This document shows, one piece after another, positions 5,903 through 38,288 of a DNA stretch of 64,000 nucleotides. The stretch's first letter is position 1; each line of letters begins with the position of its first letter. A model generated the notes under the pieces. It saw only the letters and a list, made by a program, of their open reading frames with translations. It was not told the origin of the DNA and did no database searches. The translations under genes were made by a program, and so were the position numbers. Origin of the DNA: Bosea sp. PAMC 26642 (GTDB lineage: Bacteria > Pseudomonadota > Alphaproteobacteria > Rhizobiales > Beijerinckiaceae); the NCBI RefSeq assembly GCF_001562255.1, contig NZ_CP014301.1:4433501-4497500 (forward strand), given 5' to 3'.

Positions 5903-6732
5903 GCTCAGGACCTATTAATTTGGTTTGAGATGTGATTCACGGTGTCTGGGAGGACGCCGTGATGGGTGATTTGTTTCTGCTGAGCGAGCGGCAGATGGCG
6001 CGGATATCGCCGTATTTTCCGTTGTCGCATGGGGTTCCGCGGGTCGATGACCGGCGCGTAGTGAGCGGAATCGTCTATGTGATCCGCAACGGCCTGCAGT
6101 GGAAGGACGCGCCCAAGGACTACGGTCCCCACAAGACACTCTACAACCGCTTCATCCGCTGGAGCCGGCTCGGTGTCTTCGACCGGATCTTCGCCGGGCT
6201 CGCCGGCGAAGGGCCCAAGCCGGAGCGGATCATGATCGACGCGACGCATCTGAAGGCGCACCGCACGGCGGCGAGCCTGCTCAAAAAGGGGCTGTTCCCC
6301 GTCGTATCGGGCGCACCAAGGGCGGGCTGAACTCCAAGCTCCACACCGTCTGCGACGATACCGGCCGCCCGATCATCATGCTGCTCTCGGAAGGCCAGAT
6401 GAGCGACCACAAGGGCGCGAGCCTCGTGCTCGCTGCCCTGCCGCCAGCCAAAACCCTCATCGCCGACCGCGGCTATGATAGCGCCGCGTTCCGCCAGGCG
6501 CTGGTCGCCAAAGGCATCGAACCCTGCATTCCGTCTAGCAGAAGCCGGAAAATCCCTTATCCCTACGACAAGACGCTCTACCGCCAGCGCCACAAGGTCG
6601 AGAACCTCTTCGCCAAGCTCAAAGAATGGCGACGCATCGCCACACGCTACGACCGATGTGCTCACACATTCTTCTCGGCCATCTGTATCGCCGCAGCCGT
6701 CATCTTCTGGCTGTGAGCAACGAGTCCTGAGC
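5903..6732 (+). mobile_element. IS5-family insertion sequence, IS427-like
   Basis: An element of about 830 bp with one transposase split over two frames. Terminal inverted repeats GCTCAGGAC (5903-5911) and GTCCTGAGC (6724-6732) are flanked on both sides by CTAG (5899-5902 and 6733-6736), the sort of target duplication used by this IS group. Because CTAG also continues the repeat, the exact tips could be a few bases further out. Size, repeats and transposase organisation all agree, so the copy looks complete. It sits in the attachment-like arm at the edge of the peptide-transporter segment. Confidence 0.85.
5962..6716 (+). CDS. IS5-family transposase (OrfA-OrfB, programmed -1 frameshift)
   Basis: DDE transposase encoded in two overlapping frames. 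The first frame (to 6330) begins MGDLFLLSERQMARISPYFP after GGGAGG and carries the DUF4096-like N-terminal domain and the first catalytic aspartate (MIDATHLKAH). The second frame, ending at 6716, carries TKGGLNSKLHTVCD, LIADRGYDS (second Asp) and YRQRHKVENLFAKLKEWRR (Glu region). The frames join at the A-rich run AAAAAGGGG near 6284, where a -1 slip gives the continuous family sequence. This is the normal design for IS427-type elements rather than damage. Confidence 0.85.
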
Positions 6733-6746
6733 CTAGCTTCGGAGGG
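6732..6746 (+). repeat. attachment-like core copy A
   Basis: CCTAGCTTCGGAGGG. The last ten bases, CTTCGGAGGG, equal the complement of the anticodon-loop region of tRNA-Arg(CCG). The same core recurs in the same orientation at 20146-20161 and 30160-30175. The first bases overlap the right-hand CTAG of the IS. Confidence 0.5.
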
Positions 6747-20042: not shown

Positions 20043-20150
20043 GTGGCGCGGTCGTGCCGACCGAGTTGTGATCGGACTTCACGTGCGAATTCGAAGCTCA
20101 AGTTCTTGTAAATGTAGGGCTATTTTAGAGGCGGCTGCGGCGATAACCCA
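20043..20150 (+). repeat. left arm B of a duplicated attachment-like region
   Basis: The counterpart of 5790-5898 with the same block order, ending in TATTTTAGAGGCGGC and running into the second CTTCGGAGGG core and a tRNA-Arg fragment. No gene is seen between the GntR stop and this arm. Confidence 0.55.
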
Positions 20151-20161
20151 GCTTCGGAGGG
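20146..20161 (+). repeat. attachment-like core copy B
   Basis: ACCCAGCTTCGGAGGG. In this copy the core continues on its right side into the 5' half of tRNA-Arg(CCG), which shows where the core sequence comes from. Confidence 0.5.
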
Positions 20162-20191
20162 CAACGCTCTATCCAGCTGAGCTACGGGCGC
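20152..20191 (-). tRNA. 5' half of tRNA-Arg(CCG), truncated
   Basis: Forty bases on the minus strand begin GCGCCCGTAGCTCAGCTGG. They contain the acceptor 5' strand, the D arm and the anticodon arm as far as loop CTCCGAA (anticodon CCG). The sequence then departs into GCTGGGTTATC instead of the expected stem GGCAA, so the gene cannot fold and is broken exactly after the anticodon loop. Confidence 0.8.
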
Positions 20192-20265: not shown

Positions 20266-20302
20266 GGCACAGGTCGCACGTTCGAATCGTGTCGGGCGCG
20301 CC
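20266..20302 (+). tRNA. 3' half of a tRNA-Arg-like gene, inverted relative to the 5' half
   Basis: GGCACAGGTC followed by a T arm (GCACG TTCGAAT CGTGT) and CGGGCGC-G-CC, the complement of the GCGCCCG acceptor strand found on the other strand at 20185-20191. The terminal base is G rather than the A of CCA. The two halves point away from each other, about 75 bp apart. Confidence 0.7.
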
Positions 20303-28843: not shown

Positions 28844-29248
28844 TTATGCGGCTTGCAGAGCCGCGACCAGATCCGGGCCACTTGTCCCGATAAGATCCTT
28901 GGACAGGTCCGCCACAAGCGCGACTTCAAGCTGTTTGTGATAATGCAGACGCATCTCGCCCAGTGTCCGAGGCGAGGCCACGATCACCAGCTTCTCGATT
29001 TTGTGCCCGAGCACCTGCTGATTGAGCCATTCGGTCGCCGCGGCGGCGTGGGCATCTTCATCGATCTGATGTCCTGTTGGATTCGCGGAACTGGAGTCTC
29101 GTCCCGCTCCGCCTCCCTTGTTGCTCTCGTCCAGATTGGGCGTCGGTATCGAAGAGAGAACCGGGCTCGCTTCGTCCCCGCTGTTCCGATGAAGCTCGAA
29201 ATGCTTCCCGTCGATCAGCGCGACAACGGCACCATGTGGTAGCTGCAT
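28844..29248 (-). CDS. host attachment family protein
   Basis: A 134-aa soluble protein of the family named for Agrobacterium attachment to plant cells. It begins MQLPHGAVVALIDGKHFELH. The conserved C-terminal part is KIEKLVIVASPRTLGEMRLH, with LSKDLIGT close to the end. The middle is a polar, probably disordered linker. It is a lone gene between the catabolic region and the mobile patch. Members are widespread in Alphaproteobacteria and their biochemical role is unsettled. Confidence 0.8.
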   Translation of the reverse strand: MQLPHGAVVALIDGKHFELHRNSGDEASPVLSSIPTPNLDESNKGGGAGRDSSSANPTGHQIDEDAHAAAATEWLNQQVLGHKIEKLVIVASPRTLGEMRLHYHKQLEVALVADLSKDLIGTSGPDLVAALQAA

Positions 29249-30159
29249 CAGTGTCTCCTAAAATCAGGTGATCCGACCAGACGTGAAGCGCAGCAAAAGC
29301 TGAGATGCTAACGCGGGAGCGAGTCCGGGACCCGGCAGCGCTCCACCTGGTCATGATGAACCAGAGGGAGAGCGTATCGTTCCACCACGCCGCCCGCCCC
29401 GGTCGCGCCGCCTGCGCCCGAGGACCCGGCGGAGACGGTCGCCGAGGCGCTCGGCCGGCTGAACTGGAGCCTCAAGCAGATCGTGCTGGTGCTGATCTTC
29501 CTCGGCTCGGGGGAGAGCGCGCCAGAACCCCCGCCCGCGCTGCTGCGCGTCGGTTGATCATGAGGGGCGAGCGGAGCGCCGCGAGGCGCGGGGTTATAGG
29601 GCCGCTTCGTTGAACCAGAAGCGGCGCGGAGGGATTGAGCCACCCTCCGCACGCCCCGTGGCGCTCCGCTCGTCGGCGATTTGACGACTCCGGGCCGCGC
29701 TTATCGGGATTTCGGGGTTTCGATCTGAAAGCTCGGGCGCCAGTTCGCCTGAGGCTTGTCGCGACCTTTGCCGGCAGTTCGTCGTCCCGTCATCCTTATA
29801 GCGAGCTCCTCGCACAGGGGCCGTAGTACCCCCAGGGCGGTGCCCCGAAGCCTCCCGGAAGTGGATCGTGACTCCACCCGCAGGCGCCGCCCCCACCCCC
29901 ACCAACGGCACACCTCCGGATGGCTGCCCCTCGGGGATGAGGTGGTGGGATTATGGATGCAGTGTGGATGCCGGGGATTAATGTCATCCGTCCGCTCGAA
30001 GAGGAAGCGCGGGGCCCCCTCTCTTACAAGGGGGAGGGGATGAACGTTGTCCGCATGAGGCGCTGAGGGCTTACGGCGCGCTGTGGAGAGCTCAGCGTCT
30101 CGCTGGTTCAGTTGCCGCGTCTAACCCTGCTATGGCGAATTGCGTTTGCCGCCTACGCA
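29249..30159. other. gene-poor segment of about 0.9 kb
   Basis: No complete gene is convincing here. A short open stretch (29372-29556) rich in Pro and Ala ends LNWSLKQIVLVLIFLGSG plus a tail. It looks like the decayed end of some gene, but I do not recognise it and it lacks a start. Further right are GC hairpins such as CCCCCTC / GAGGGGG near 30021-30045. Since the segment precedes the reverse transcriptase, an associated structured RNA could lie in it, but I see no proof. Confidence 0.4.
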
Positions 30160-30175
30160 ACCTAGCTTCGGAGGG
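30160..30175 (+). repeat. attachment-like core copy C
   Basis: ACCTAGCTTCGGAGGG, identical over 15 bases to copy A and differing by one base from copy B. It marks an abrupt change: to its right the composition turns AT-rich and the reverse transcriptase gene begins within 30 bp. Confidence 0.5.
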
Positions 30176-30204
30176 CGCACAGTTTTTATTTTGGGGGCAC
30201 AACG

Positions 30205-31746
30205 TTGACGTTGACCGTTCAGTCACTCGAATGGGCGATTCAATTCGTCGCAGATCATTCTGACGGCGATCTTTTCCCTCGAATCGCAGAAATGTCCGCT
30301 CTTTTAGCAAATAAGAGAGAACTTGCTAACGAGATCGCAAATAAACCGCTCGCGCAACTTGCAACCGGCGCGCATCGGAGATTTATTGTCCCAAAAGACG
30401 AAATCTCCTATCGGCAAGCAACCCAACTTGATCTTCAGGATACGATAATACTATCTGCATTGATATTCCAATATGGAAATAATATTGAAGCGAGGCGGCT
30501 TCGCGAAGGAATTGTATTTAGTTATAGATTTTTACCAACGTCGGATTTCGGATTATATAGATCAGGATCTGCTTGGAATGATTTCTGGACGCAATCGCAA
30601 AGGCGTTCATTCGATAATAGATTTATTCTATATTGCGATATATCGGATTTCTATAATCAAATATATCATCACGCCGTAGAAAATCAACTTATAGCCTCGG
30701 GCCTGCCCAATCAAGCTATTAAGTGGGTGATTAATCTACTAGAATCAACCACAGCAGGCGTATCAAGGGGGGTGCCGATCGGGCCGCACGCTGCTCATTT
30801 GATAGCGGAAGCCTCACTGATTCCGGTAGATAACAGCATGCTTACGTCGGGGTTGGAATTTATAAGATACGCTGATGATATAATAATCTTCTGTAAAGAT
30901 AGTAAGTCGGCTCAAAGGGCTATAGGAACTGTGGCGCAAATACTAGATAAACAGCAAAGACTTACATTGCAAAGACACAAGACAAAAATATATGAGTACG
31001 AAAAATTTATTGAATTTTCAAATGAAATGATTGAAGACAGGCCTATAAATTCAGACGAAGATGGGTTATTGAAAATAATATCAAAATATTCACGTGGTAA
31101 TCCATATGCAATAATAACGTTTAATTCGATCAGCGAGAGTGACTGGGCGTCAATATCTGAGGAAACGCTTACAAATATAATATATGAATACCTAAATCAA
31201 GATGAAGTAGATTATATAAGGCTCCGCTGGTTTTATAGGCGAATTTCTCAAATCGGCCATCCAGGGGCTATATCTGCCACCCTCGATAACATTGATAGAC
31301 TGACACCATGCTTTGCAGGAATCTGCTCATATCTTGGATCAGTGCAATCCATTGAGCAATCTCAATGGAAAGATATTGGTTCAAAGCTAATAGAATTGCT
31401 TAAAAAGGATGAAATTATTGAAAACGAATATTTTAAAATGTCTATATTAAATTTGTTCTCAAAAAATAGATATATAAATCATTTCAATAAAATAGCCAAA
31501 ATGTACAACTCGTCTAGTTCATTCGCCAAAAGGGAAATAGTTTTGGCAGCAAAACAAAACGAAGCAATCGACTGGCTCAGGGAAATGAAAGAAGATTTTG
31601 AGGGAATGGATAAGTGGCTGAAGATGTCATTCTTATTCTGTATGCATGATTTTCCTCGAGATGAGCGGAGGGTCTTTATAAGCAGATTTTCTTATGACAG
31701 GCCAGTCGATCAGATAATTGCAAAATGGGCAAAGAACGGCGCTTAG
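30205..31746 (+). CDS. reverse transcriptase with helical C-terminal extension (unassigned / Abi-DRT-like)
   Basis: A 513-aa RNA-directed DNA polymerase. Palm motif A is LYCDISDFYNQI (Asp145), motif B is SRGVPIGPHAAH (188-197) and the catalytic FIRYADDIIIF holds Asp224-Asp225. Motif D-like RHKTKIYEY follows. No maturase X, endonuclease or primase domain is visible. Residues about 290-513 are hydrophilic and predicted helical by eye, as in abortive-infection and DRT-type enzymes. The start is TTG (or TTG two codons on) after GGGGG. The gene is visibly AT-rich with many ATA and AGA codons, unlike every neighbour, so it was acquired horizontally. The exact RT class is not assigned. Confidence 0.85.
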   Translation: MTLTVQSLEWAIQFVADHSDGDLFPRIAEMSALLANKRELANEIANKPLAQLATGAHRRFIVPKDEISYRQATQLDLQDTIILSALIFQYGNNIEARRLREGIVFSYRFLPTSDFGLYRSGSAWNDFWTQSQRRSFDNRFILYCDISDFYNQIYHHAVENQLIASGLPNQAIKWVINLLESTTAGVSRGVPIGPHAAHLIAEASLIPVDNSMLTSGLEFIRYADDIIIFCKDSKSAQRAIGTVAQILDKQQRLTLQRHKTKIYEYEKFIEFSNEMIEDRPINSDEDGLLKIISKYSRGNPYAIITFNSISESDWASISEETLTNIIYEYLNQDEVDYIRLRWFYRRISQIGHPGAISATLDNIDRLTPCFAGICSYLGSVQSIEQSQWKDIGSKLIELLKKDEIIENEYFKMSILNLFSKNRYINHFNKIAKMYNSSSSFAKREIVLAAKQNEAIDWLREMKEDFEGMDKWLKMSFLFCMHDFPRDERRVFISRFSYDRPVDQIIAKWAKNGA

Positions 31747-31785
31747 ATCGGTATCGGATGGTCGCGCTTAACCTTCTCCCTGCCG

Positions 31786-34470
<2,685 letters not shown>

Positions 34471-34573
34471 GGCGCCAATATGGGGCGGAAGCGGCCCGCG
34501 CGCGAGGGGGCAGGGCGCATGGCGGGGCGGATTGGTGACAGGAGCTGTCAGGAGAGGCGGCTTCAGCCCCCTT

Positions 34574-34719
34574 GTCATTCCGGGGCGACCCGAAGGGCCG
34601 AGCCCGGAACCCATATCCACCGAAGTCGCCGGAAAAGGGCGCCGTCGTCGTCGCGCCTATCTGCCTCGACCCGTAATTATCGGTTCCGGGCTCGGGCCTT
34701 CGGCCTGCCCCGGAATGAC
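34574..34719. repeat. REP-like palindromic repeat upstream of uvrB
   Basis: Tips GTCATTCCGGGGC and GCCCCGGAATGAC are exact inverse complements. Just inside, CGAAGGGCCGAGCCCGGAAC pairs with GTTCCGGGCTCGGGCCTTCG with a single mismatch or slip. The whole can form a long cruciform. It shares tip sequence with 15418-15533 and lies in the intergenic region between uvrB and the restriction-modification gene. Confidence 0.65.
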
Positions 34720-34762: not shown

Positions 34763-34833
34763 GATTGCATCATCGGGCATCTTGTTTAGATAGAGTTGCA
34801 ATTCTTCAGATACACAATCTGGAGTTGCATCAT
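34763..34833 (+). promoter_or_regulatory. three phased direct repeats over the start of the R-M gene
   Basis: GATTGCATCAT (34763), GAGTTGCAATT (34793) and GAGTTGCATCAT (34822) are spaced 30 and 29 bp, close to three helical turns. The last ends at the first base of the TTG start. The layout suggests an operator bound by a repeating dimer that can block transcription or translation. No separate controller gene is seen. Confidence 0.45.
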
Positions 34834-37800
34834 TGCCGGATCAACAATCGCAGGCCGATGCCGCCCGCATCGAGCGCTTCATCGCGCGCTGGCGTGTTTC
34901 CGAGGGAGCGGAGCGCGCCGCCTATGCACCGTTCCTGAACGAGTTCTGCGACCTGCTCGGCGTCGAGAAGCCGCAGCCGCCGATGAGCGACGCCGAGGCG
35001 GTGACCTATCGCTTCGAGTACCCCGTCAAATTCCGCGAGGCCGATGGTGGCGGCTCGACCGGGCGGATCGACCTCTACAAGAAATCCGCCTTCGTGCTGG
35101 AGGCCAAGCAGAGCCGGCTGAAGGGGCAGGCCAAGGAGTTGCTGCCGGCGCAGGGCGCCCTGCCGGGGCTGGACCTGCCGACGCCCGGCCCGCGCGGGCG
35201 CCGCGGCGCCGACCGCGCCTGGGACGTGCTGATGCTGAATGCGCGCCGCCAGGCGCAGGACTATGCCCGCGCGCTGCCGGCAAGCCATGGCTGGCCGCCC
35301 TTCCTGATCCTCTGCGATGTCGGGCACTGCTTCGAGTTCTATGCCGACTTCACCGGGCAGGGGAAGAACTACGTCCAGTTTCCCGACCGTCAGGGTTTTC
35401 GCGTTTTCCTCGACGATCTGCGCGAGCCCGCCATCCGCGAGCGCATCGCCGCGATCTGGGAGGATCCCCAGGCTCTCGACCCCCGTCGCCACGCCGCCCG
35501 CGTGACGCGGGCGATCGCGCAGCGGCTGGCCGCGGTCTCGAAATCGCTCGAACGGGCGAACGATCCCGAGGATGTCGCGCTGTTCCTGATGCGCTGCCTG
35601 TTCACGATGTTCGCCGAGGATGTCGGGCTGATCCGCAAGGACGGCTTCAAGGCGCTGCTGCGCGACTGTCTCGGGAACCCCACCTCCTTCGTGCCGTTGG
35701 TCGGCGAGCTGTGGCAGGCGATGGACAAGGGCGCCTTCTCGGTGTCGCTGCGCGAACAGGTCAAGCACTTCAACGGCAAGCTCTTCGAGCACGCCAAGGT
35801 GTTCGCGCTTGGCCGTGAGGAGATCGGCGAATTGCTCGCCGCCGCGGAGCACGACTGGACGGAAGTCGAGCCGGCGATCTTCGGGACGCTGCTGGAGCAG
35901 GCGCTCGACCCCAGGGAGCGCGCAAAACTCGGCGCGCATTACACGCCGCGCGCCTATGTCGAGCGGCTGGTGGTCGAGACCGTGATCGCGCCCTTGCGCG
36001 AGGATTGGCGCGCCGTTCTGGGCGCGGCCCAGCGGGCGCGCGACGCCGGCGACCGCAAGGCCGCGCTGGCGCTGATCGAGGGATTTCACACGAGCCTGTG
36101 CGCCACGCGCGTGCTCGACCCGGCCTGCGGCACCGGAAATTTCCTGCACGTCGCGCAGGAGCTAATGAAAAAGCTCGAAGGCGAGGTGCTGGAGGCGGCG
36201 GGCGAACTCGGCAGCGCCGAGAAGCTCGGCGGCTTCGGCGACCGCCATGTCGGGCCGCACCAGTTCCTCGGCATGGAGCTCAACCGGCGCGCGGTGGCGA
36301 TCGCCGATCTCGTGCTCTGGATCGGCCATCTGCAATGGCACTTCCGCACGCGCGGCTTCGCGCCCCGCGAGCCCATCCTCGAAAAGCTCGACCATATCCA
36401 CCGCCGCGACGCCGTCCTCGCCTGGGATGGCTGGCCGCTGCCGGCGGTCGTCGCTGGAAGCGAGAGCCTGCCAAGTCCGCGCCGGCCGGAGTGGCCCGAA
36501 GCCGAGTTCATCGTCGGCAACCCGCCCTTCATCGGCGGCAAGGATCTGCGGGCGCGGCTTGGCGACGCCTATGTCGAGGCACTCTGGGCGGCACATCCGC
36601 AGATGAACCAGAGCGCCGATTTCGTGATGTACTGGTGGGACCGCGCCGCCGAACTGCTGACGCGCAAGGGCACGGCGCTCAGGCGCTTCGGCCTCGTCAC
36701 CACCAATTCGATCACGCAGCTCTTCCAGCGCCGTGTCGTGGCGCGCCACCTTGCGGGCCGTAAGCCGGTTTCGCTGCTGATGGCGATCCCGGACCATCCC
36801 TGGACCAAGGCTGGGCGGGACACGGCGGCGGTGCGCATCGCGATGACCGTGGTCGAGGCCGGCGCACATGAGGGCCGGCTGCGCGAGGTGGTTTCCGAGA
36901 GCGCCCTCGACACAGACCAGCCGCTGATCGGGATGAGCGAGACGGCCGGACATATCAATGCCGACCTGACGATTGGCGTCGATGTCACGCAGGCGCTCGG
37001 CCTCATGGCCAATGACGGTCTCTGCTCACCGGGCGTCAAGCTTCACGGCGCCGGCTTCATCGTGACGCCAGCCGAGGCGGAGGCGCTGGGGCTCGGCCGG
37101 CGGCCGGGGCTGGAAGCCCATATCCGGCCCTACCGCAATGGCCGCGACCTGATGGCGCGATCGCGCGGCAAGATGGTGATCGATCTGTTCGGCCTGGGCG
37201 TTGACGAGGTGCGCGAGCGCTTCCCGGAGGTCTATCAGCACGTCAAGCGCACGGTGAAGGAGGCGGTCGACAAGGACGGCAGGTCGATCGGACGCGACGC
37301 CAACAACCGCGAAAGCTACCGCAACGAATGGTGGATTTTCGGCGAACCGCGCCGCGAGCTTCGTCCGGCGCTTATCCATCTCCAGCGCTACATCGCCACC
37401 GTCGAGACCGCAAAGCACCGCGTCTTTCAGTTTCTCGACGCCTCGATCCTGCCGGACAACAAGCTCATTGCCGTCGGGCTGTCGGACGCCTTCCATCTCG
37501 GAGTGCTGTCGTCGCGAATCCATGATGTCTGGTATCTCGGGAGCGCCGGCAAACTGGGTGTCTACGAGCGCGACGCGGTCTATGTGAAATCGCGCTGCTT
37601 CGACCCGTTTCCCTTTCCGGAAACGGACGAACAGCGGAAGGAGGCGATCCGTCGTCCCGCGGAGGCACTCGACGCGCTTCGCAAGCAGGTGCTCGACGAG
37701 CATCCCGAACTGACGCTGACGAGACTCTACAATGTCCGCGAGGCCATCCTTGCGGGGCAGGCGCTGACTGCCGAAGAAGAGATGATCCGCGACAAGGGGC

Positions 37801-38288
37801 TTGTCCTGATCCTGAACGAGCATCACGACGCGATCGATTCAGCCGTCGCCACCGCTTATGGCTGGCCGGCCGATCTCTCCGGTGAAGACATCCTCACGCG
37901 GCTCGTGGCCCTGAACGCGCAGCGGTCGCGCGAGGAGGCGCGTGGACAGGTGCGCTGGCTGCGGCCGGACTATCAGCGCCCGCGATTTGCCAGGGATGGC
38001 AGCGGCGGCGAACAACTCGCGGCAGACGAGGTTCTGTCGCCGGCCTTGGTCGCGCTCGCCAAGGCGAACTTCCCGACCGAGCCGGTCGAGCGCGTCGCCG
38101 CCGTCCTGGCTGCGCTCGCGACGGCCTCCGGCGCACTAGACGCCACCGAGATCGCATTGCGCTTCAGGCAGGGCCGCAAGGTCGAACGCGCCATCCGCGA
38201 CATCCTCGTCTCGCTCGCCCGCGTCGGCGAGATCGCCACCGGCGACGGCGGCCGCAGCTTCGCGAGGCGCCTCACGGCGGCGGGCTAG
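34833..38288 (+). CDS. single-chain restriction-modification enzyme, MmeI-like (type IIL)
   Basis: An 1151-aa bifunctional enzyme. An N-terminal PD-(D/E)xK nuclease is marked by Asp80-x9-Glu90-Ala-Lys92 in GRIDLYKKSAFVLEAKQS, the spacing of MmeI. A helical connector follows. The gamma-class adenine methyltransferase has motif I DPACGTGNFL at about 429 and motif IV NPPF at about 563. From about residue 720 a target-recognition domain and a helical C-terminus follow. Start is TTG. Such enzymes methylate one strand for protection and cut about 20 bases away. The neighbours are uvrB and a small DUF2945 gene. The recognition sequence cannot be read. Confidence 0.85.
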   Translation: MPDQQSQADAARIERFIARWRVSEGAERAAYAPFLNEFCDLLGVEKPQPPMSDAEAVTYRFEYPVKFREADGGGSTGRIDLYKKSAFVLEAKQSRLKGQAKELLPAQGALPGLDLPTPGPRGRRGADRAWDVLMLNARRQAQDYARALPASHGWPPFLILCDVGHCFEFYADFTGQGKNYVQFPDRQGFRVFLDDLREPAIRERIAAIWEDPQALDPRRHAARVTRAIAQRLAAVSKSLERANDPEDVALFLMRCLFTMFAEDVGLIRKDGFKALLRDCLGNPTSFVPLVGELWQAMDKGAFSVSLREQVKHFNGKLFEHAKVFALGREEIGELLAAAEHDWTEVEPAIFGTLLEQALDPRERAKLGAHYTPRAYVERLVVETVIAPLREDWRAVLGAAQRARDAGDRKAALALIEGFHTSLCATRVLDPACGTGNFLHVAQELMKKLEGEVLEAAGELGSAEKLGGFGDRHVGPHQFLGMELNRRAVAIADLVLWIGHLQWHFRTRGFAPREPILEKLDHIHRRDAVLAWDGWPLPAVVAGSESLPSPRRPEWPEAEFIVGNPPFIGGKDLRARLGDAYVEALWAAHPQMNQSADFVMYWWDRAAELLTRKGTALRRFGLVTTNSITQLFQRRVVARHLAGRKPVSLLMAIPDHPWTKAGRDTAAVRIAMTVVEAGAHEGRLREVVSESALDTDQPLIGMSETAGHINADLTIGVDVTQALGLMANDGLCSPGVKLHGAGFIVTPAEAEALGLGRRPGLEAHIRPYRNGRDLMARSRGKMVIDLFGLGVDEVRERFPEVYQHVKRTVKEAVDKDGRSIGRDANNRESYRNEWWIFGEPRRELRPALIHLQRYIATVETAKHRVFQFLDASILPDNKLIAVGLSDAFHLGVLSSRIHDVWYLGSAGKLGVYERDAVYVKSRCFDPFPFPETDEQRKEAIRRPAEALDALRKQVLDEHPELTLTRLYNVREAILAGQALTAEEEMIRDKGLVLILNEHHDAIDSAVATAYGWPADLSGEDILTRLVALNAQRSREEARGQVRWLRPDYQRPRFARDGSGGEQLAADEVLSPALVALAKANFPTEPVERVAAVLAALATASGALDATEIALRFRQGRKVERAIRDILVSLARVGEIATGDGGRSFARRLTAAG

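Follow-up and report, generated by a model that had tools for sequence, protein, structure and literature searches.

What kind of reverse transcriptase is encoded by an AT-rich gene adjoining uvrB in Bosea sp. PAMC 26642, and how did it come to lie there? The gene is found within a 64,000-nucleotide stretch of contig NZ_CP014301.1 (positions 4,433,501 to 4,497,500, hereafter the window, numbered from its first letter). An initial annotation made from the sequence had described it as a recently acquired, single-gene anti-phage reverse transcriptase (RT) or a new RT class. The protein belongs to the DRT8 family of RTs (PADLOC Drt8, PDLC03783) and the suggestion of a new class was not borne out. 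The explanation that we favor, and consider reasonably likely, is that of a single-gene DRT8 enzyme within a defense hotspot beside uvrB that is class 1-like and would synthesize protein-primed, untemplated DNA upon infection.

A single intact open reading frame (ORF) encodes the complete RT, and all catalytic motifs (CDISDFY, VSRGVPIGP, and YADD) are intact, as first described. The TTG start codon is preceded by a GGGGG motif and is plausible because most homologues start with MTL or MSL. The sole Pfam match above cut-off is RVT_1, which agrees with the reported lack of a group II maturase or endonuclease domain, and no NCBIfam model matched the protein at cut-off. The PADLOC Drt8 profile covers residues 3–511 with a score of 526.2 bits, followed by RT_UG21 with 145.2 bits, and the Drt4 and Drt6 profiles score far lower (80 and 68 bits, respectively). 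DRT8 is presumably identical to UG7, and a drt8b component exists elsewhere. The gene has a GC content of 0.388 and a third-position GC content of 0.36, compared with a mean of 0.72 across the 47 long nonoverlapping ORFs of the window (RT included) and a minimum of 0.56 among the other 46. This composition is foreign, and the proposed recent acquisition of the gene was supported.

The distribution of the family was analyzed at the protein and the genome level. A search of approximately 5.8 billion proteins identified 813 homologues at E ≤ 1e-3 (query counted) among 7,999 scored candidates, that is, those sharing the most words with the query. Among the best 120 of the 813, the 119 proteins other than the query show 56–63% identity over 93–100% of its length and the hosts include Sinorhizobium, Bradyrhizobium, Halomonas, cyanobacteria, Pontiella, and a Methanococcus. 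The motifs take the forms DI[AS]D, SRG[VI]P[IV]GP, and [YF][AS]DD within this clade, and residues D145, D224, and D225 are invariant in 31 out of 31 proteins. Genome searches with the Drt8 model (E ≤ 1e-60, own genome included, overlapping draws) returned 6 out of 385 genomes of the class, 1 out of 101 relatives, 4 out of 398 genomes of the phylum, and 8 out of 347 genomes of the order, resulting in 14 distinct further loci whose proteins were assigned by the Drt8 profile alone. The window RT shares with DRT8 the full-length profile match, the RT part followed by a helical C-terminus, and invariant residues (26 positions that are invariant in the window clade are shared by 12 or all 13 of the distant Drt8-model members), but it is just 22–28% identical to the 11 of these 14 loci that could be aligned by tblastn (E ≤ 1e-20). 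A tree of 31 proteins, 16 of them taken from the 31 proteins of the clade set, unites the window RT with proteins from Escherichia coli and Rhizobium leguminosarum (support 100/100, stem 2.81) and places the other Drt8-model loci outside this clade, several of them on long branches with unsure positions. A second R. leguminosarum copy with an interrupted frame (L037) and a protein cut by a contig end (L030) were omitted from the tree and from the tyrosine table discussed below.

No further locus of the window clade was found in genus G361 (0 out of 146 genomes with a match) or in family G523 (1 out of 297, at 25% identity), and a single-sequence query against the genome contig collection returned three weak loci. 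In E. coli, 4 out of 5,426 genomes gave a match. Two relatives whose loci were read are located near other defense genes. The three E. coli loci that were read (L033–L035) contain an integrase gene at tRNA-Sec upstream of the RT; nearby are genes for WYL-domain, helicase, and primase proteins and for a retron St85 effector. Carriage by a phage or virus was considered and rejected, since phage sequences gave merely weak, partial matches and no relative was found among viral contigs.

The predicted structure of the RT (predicted local distance difference test score 87) consists of an RT part and an all-helical C-terminal half, the latter as expected from the sequence. The model aligns end to end with DRT6 (448 residues) and DRT4 (UG15, 434 residues), which are likewise single-gene systems but only 15–16% identical, as well as with AbiK, AbiA, and Abi-P2 (391–458 residues), which share the same plan of an RT-like and a helical domain (root-mean-square deviation 4.6–5.3 Å for all five, based on a predicted model). 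The alignment is confined to the RT part for DRT2, DRT9, intron, diversity-generating, and retron enzymes, within a comparison set that lacks some families, for example, DRT1 and DRT5. The best reading of the model is that the helical alpha-repeat (HEAT-like) C-terminal domain makes the enzyme class 1-like. Class 1 systems reportedly need no template, some of them being protein-primed, and class 2 systems rely on cis-encoded RNAs.

AbiK and Abi-P2 are primed from an N-terminal tyrosine of their own (Y44 and Y61, respectively, according to the available part of PMC9508834), a feature that the window RT and its clade do not share. Neither the window protein nor the clade consensus contains a tyrosine within residues 1–68, and the clade therefore departs from AbiK priming. 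The first conserved tyrosine of the clade, Y69, is a phenylalanine or valine in 13 out of 13 distant Drt8-model members. The lack of an N-terminal tyrosine is not disqualifying for class 1 because DRT3b is reported to prime at Y666 (PMC13174585, in part). Seven tyrosines are invariant in 33 clade proteins (Y107, Y118, Y150, Y295, Y301, Y329, and Y376) and a C-terminal hydroxyl is a possible primer, with Y295, Y301, Y329, and Y376 as candidates.

The strongest new result concerns the genomic site. A probe for the 3' end of uvrB matches 40 out of 41 genomes of the genus (own genome included, one over just 101 bp). Among 29 congener loci, similarity to the window starts at the 3' end of uvrB (positions 31776–31816 in 23 loci and 31900–32039 in 6) and nothing similar to the window is found directly to the left. 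The cargo at this position was examined in 27 of the 39 congeners with a probe match (L080–L106); the remaining 12 comprise three with short or partial flanks and nine whose sequences were not fetched (including the 101-bp match), and five of the 27 stretches stop 1.8–4.4 kb left of uvrB. Within 5 kb of the uvrB end, 20 of the 27 congeners carry at least one ORF of at least 80 amino acids with a GC content below 0.57, and in 15 such an ORF with a GC content below 0.50 lies within 2.5 kb. Where 6.8 kb or more of sequence was available (22 loci), the share of loci with a 500-bp bin below 0.55 GC drops from 0.59 beside uvrB to 0 at a distance of more than 3 kb. The cargo proteins are mutually unrelated (BLASTP, 1e-5) except for two weakly similar pairs. 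Their kinds include DarT, DarG, AbiU, HEC-01A/B, PDC-S28, PDC-S33 (RelA/SpoT), PDC-S31, FRG/PDC-S15, GmrSD/NsnA-like, HD/dGTPase-like, Schlafen AlbA, and RES proteins, along with unknowns. PADLOC models matched the cargo of 11 out of 20 loci at E ≤ 1e-10 and 13 out of 20 at E ≤ 1e-3 (26 of 28 cargo ORFs scanned, 20 of 28 against Pfam; L087, L097, and L098 match weakly or at the domain level), and 7 out of 20 had none. Only 1 of 10 control ORFs (third-position GC > 0.70, > 3 kb from uvrB, from ten loci) matched a PADLOC model, an AAA ATPase, and these controls differ from the cargo in composition, so that the comparison does not separate "defense" from "foreign".

The 3' end of uvrB is thus a genus-wide slot for AT-rich, mostly differing, and often defense-like cargo, and the combination of a conserved core-gene edge with variable, defense-rich cargo makes it a core defense hotspot. 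The proposed association of the RT with defense agrees with this setting and with the neighborhoods of its two relatives. No paper joining defense island, hotspot, and uvrB was found in the literature searched and, as far as these searches go, the slot adds a new case to a type of hotspot already known. It resembles cDHS1 and cDHS2 of Pseudomonas aeruginosa, as described in the available part of PMC10250203, in carrying variable low-GC defense cargo beside conserved core genes, with no single mobile element in evidence. In contrast, cDHS1 and cDHS2 are located at tRNA and ssrA genes, whereas the edge of the present slot is the 3' end of uvrB (no tRNA or tmRNA gene was detected in 25 congener loci scanned), its cargo is small and different in nearly every locus, and a dispersed repeat lies on the opposite side in 11 of the 27 loci. 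Transduction and recombination through the conserved flanks were proposed for the P. aeruginosa hotspots (PMC10250203, in part). The cargo without a PADLOC match at E ≤ 1e-3 (L096:683–2917, L095, L106, L086, L088, L105, and L083) represents candidate undescribed defense genes. Beyond uvrB, on the side away from the slot, lies an MmeI-like restriction-modification gene that is not AT-rich (34833–38288, plus strand).

The dispersed repeat to the left of the RT gene occurs in seven copies in the genome (itself and six others at 85–92% identity), and matches, some of them partial, were found in 16 out of 18 genomes tested. All 11 congener loci with the repeat to the left of the cargo carry AT-rich cargo. 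The repeat contains a strong hairpin (arms 29568–29593 and 29647–29672) that matches no Rfam family apart from two sub-threshold matches to animal microRNA families. It may aid the exchange of cargo by homologous recombination. The 29.6–30.2 kb segment, in which a template RNA had been suspected, is indeed gene-poor, because the repeat takes up much of it.

The RT gene had also been thought to be inserted at an attachment-like core, and the annotated element start at 30160 takes in this 15-mer (CCTAGCTTCGGAGGG) in front of the gene itself. The motif exists at 30161–30175, ending 29 nt before the start codon, with one exact copy at 6732–6746 and a one-mismatch copy at 20147–20161. However, the window contains 20 direct 15-mer pairs that are more than 500 bp apart (null mean 10.4, range 6–15 in 20 runs of a third-order Markov model) and the BLAST E-value of both partners is 0.13 each; a single such pair is therefore unremarkable and no evidence for an attachment site. 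As a counterpoint, the three sites are the only ones with at most one mismatch in the 5.5-Mb genome. No pair of cores flanks the RT gene, and the attachment core was rejected: the site is marked by the conserved end of uvrB instead. The one-mismatch copy overlaps a half tRNA-Arg(CCG) gene (20147–20184), which may be left over from an island end; an intact tRNA-Arg gene is located 31 kb left of the window (G000:C1:4402127–4402203), and a T-arm-like 3' piece was recognized by eye near 20270–20302. ARAGORN detected no tRNA gene in the window.

Table 1. Coordinates of the RT gene, its parts, and neighboring features within the window
Feature	Position	Strand	Remark
Drt8-family reverse transcriptase gene	30205..31746	+	513 aa, TTG start, PADLOC Drt8 526 bits
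RT palm and fingers part (residues 1–275)	30205..31029	+	CDISDFY, VSRGVPIGP, YADD; Pfam and predicted model
All-helical C-terminal domain (residues 283–511)	31051..31737	+	predicted, alpha-repeat-like, compare class 1 DRT/Abi
GGGGG, probable ribosome-binding site of RT	30193..30197	+	sequence
uvrB	31786..34620	-	3' end forms the conserved hotspot edge
Dispersed intergenic repeat, approximately 420 bp	29530..29950	+	left neighbor of cargo, not RT-specific
15-mer CCTAGCTTCGGAGGG, the proposed core	30161..30175	+	unremarkable repeat

Several DRT systems (DRT2, DRT3, DRT9, and DRT10) are described as using a nearby noncoding RNA (PMC13213688; PMC12632851, both in part), and the window RT might be a class 2-like enzyme that is templated in the manner of DRT2, DRT9, or DRT10 by an RNA located upstream, downstream, or overlapping other genes. 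In favor of this, 453 bp upstream of the E. coli homologue are free of annotated genes. However, the R. leguminosarum homologue has just 54 bp free upstream and 74 bp downstream, and the downstream space is likewise short in E. coli (63 bp) and in the window, where 39 bp separate the end of the RT gene from the stop codon of the convergent uvrB, which also argues against a template just after the gene. A comparison of the flanks (1.5 kb per side) of 18 RT loci from this family, two of which represent one R. leguminosarum locus, revealed no similarity between loci at E ≤ 0.05 except for L019/L027 downstream (main match inside a partner gene) and L027/L028 (a marginal 52-bp match). No flank conservation was found among the three window-clade loci, by a test of uncalibrated power (a DRT2 positive control gave 1 partial match in 259 genomes). 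The only conserved DNA upstream of the window RT is the dispersed repeat, which is also present beside uvrB in congeners for which no Drt8 match was seen (six of the 11 were listed without a match in the search of the relatives, the other five were not individually listed), and an upstream template RNA was therefore rejected. Covariation in the alignment of the seven repeat copies is negligible for one strand (−0.4 of −163.8 kcal/mol) and unfavorable for the other (+3.8). No Rfam family matched the window at gathering score, and thus no msr/msd or intron RNA of a known family was detected; direct repeats within 29200–31900, where the search for a diversity-generating template/variable repeat pair was made, measure only 16–18 nt. 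Together with the domain content, these results agree with the view that the enzyme is neither a group II intron nor a diversity-generating RT. A neighboring template RNA was not detected, although an RNA might overlap other genes, and the structural match of the C-terminal half is to class 1 enzymes and not to the DRT2 and DRT9 chains listed; a templated, class 2-like mechanism is in our view improbable.

Another alternative, which we consider unlikely, is that the RT supplies only the sensing or DNA-writing part of a DRT8 system whose effector (a separate nuclease or a Cap17-type or HEPN-like protein) is encoded elsewhere. Several observations speak for this alternative. In 5 of the 14 other Drt8-model loci an RTasPDDEXK gene overlaps or directly follows the RT gene (L019, L020, L027, and L030 by PADLOC profile and L028 by tblastn). 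The RTs of the E. coli and R. leguminosarum clade loci are accompanied within 75 bp by a convergent gene for a small protein, which we take to be HEPN-like, with an RNNLFH motif (RNNLFHGGK; L033:9431–9904 and L036:9620–10090, both on the minus strand, 32% mutual identity). Furthermore, DRT8 is listed together with a Cap17 effector in one publication (PMC10952713, in part). On the other hand, no such gene is located between the window RT and its neighbors, in a search limited to the surroundings of the RT rather than the whole genome, and tblastn found no PD-(D/E)XK gene in the fetched stretches of the window clade (window, L033, and L036), unlike in the five distant loci. Neither NCBIfam nor PADLOC models match the two RNNLFH proteins, nor does any Pfam model above cut-off, and relatives occur in eight plasmid neighborhoods (L038–L045) without an annotated RT, next to Qat, an abortive-infection protein, a helicase-ATPase pair, and other varied genes; in R. 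leguminosarum the RNNLFH gene abuts GajB on the same strand. The family was treated as a frequent island passenger and, being promiscuous, was rejected as an obligatory partner. The RT thus apparently acts as a single gene, with no partner gene detectable beside it. A domesticated RT with a role in repair or regulation linked to uvrB might be suspected from its position next to a repair gene with 39 bp between the two, but the Drt8 match is found only in the own genome among the 101 relatives, whereas the uvrB probe matches nearly all genomes of the genus, and the slot is filled by unrelated, often defense-like genes in congeners; given also the foreign composition, this explanation is hardly credible.

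The single-gene DRT8 explanation can be combined into the following scenario. The RT is very probably an anti-phage protein, as originally proposed, based on its full-length Drt8 match, the slot rich in defense-like genes, and the location of two relatives near other defense genes. The gene would have arrived as AT-rich cargo in the hotspot at the 3' end of uvrB, beside the dispersed repeat, and cargo exchange would probably proceed by homologous recombination across the conserved flanks. The RT would most likely oligomerize through its helical C-terminal domain, and phage infection would trigger it to polymerize single-stranded DNA with no nucleic acid as template, primed from one of its own hydroxyl residues. 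The DNA or a DNA–protein adduct may then halt either the phage or the cell.

DRT8 belongs to a small number of DRT types for which two 2026 reviews (PMC13213688; PMC13314766) call the mechanism unresolved, and no DRT8 mechanism paper was found among the matches listed in the literature searched (DRT8, UG7, and drt8b). The window clade provides a clean test case because it is compact and apparently single-gene. The structural alignment leads to the concrete prediction of class 1-like, template-free synthesis and to a short list of priming residues, and the uvrB slot offers a simple genomic address for further defense genes in the genus, including cargo without a model. Tentatively, and with rather less confidence than in the scenario above, the clade may represent a functionally distinct single-gene branch of DRT8 that has spread across unrelated bacteria and archaea and produces protein-primed DNA from a priming residue unlike that of AbiK (Y295, Y301, Y329, or Y376), and the uvrB slot may be an integrase-free site of defense exchange whose unmatched cargo (7 out of 20 loci) includes undescribed defense genes.
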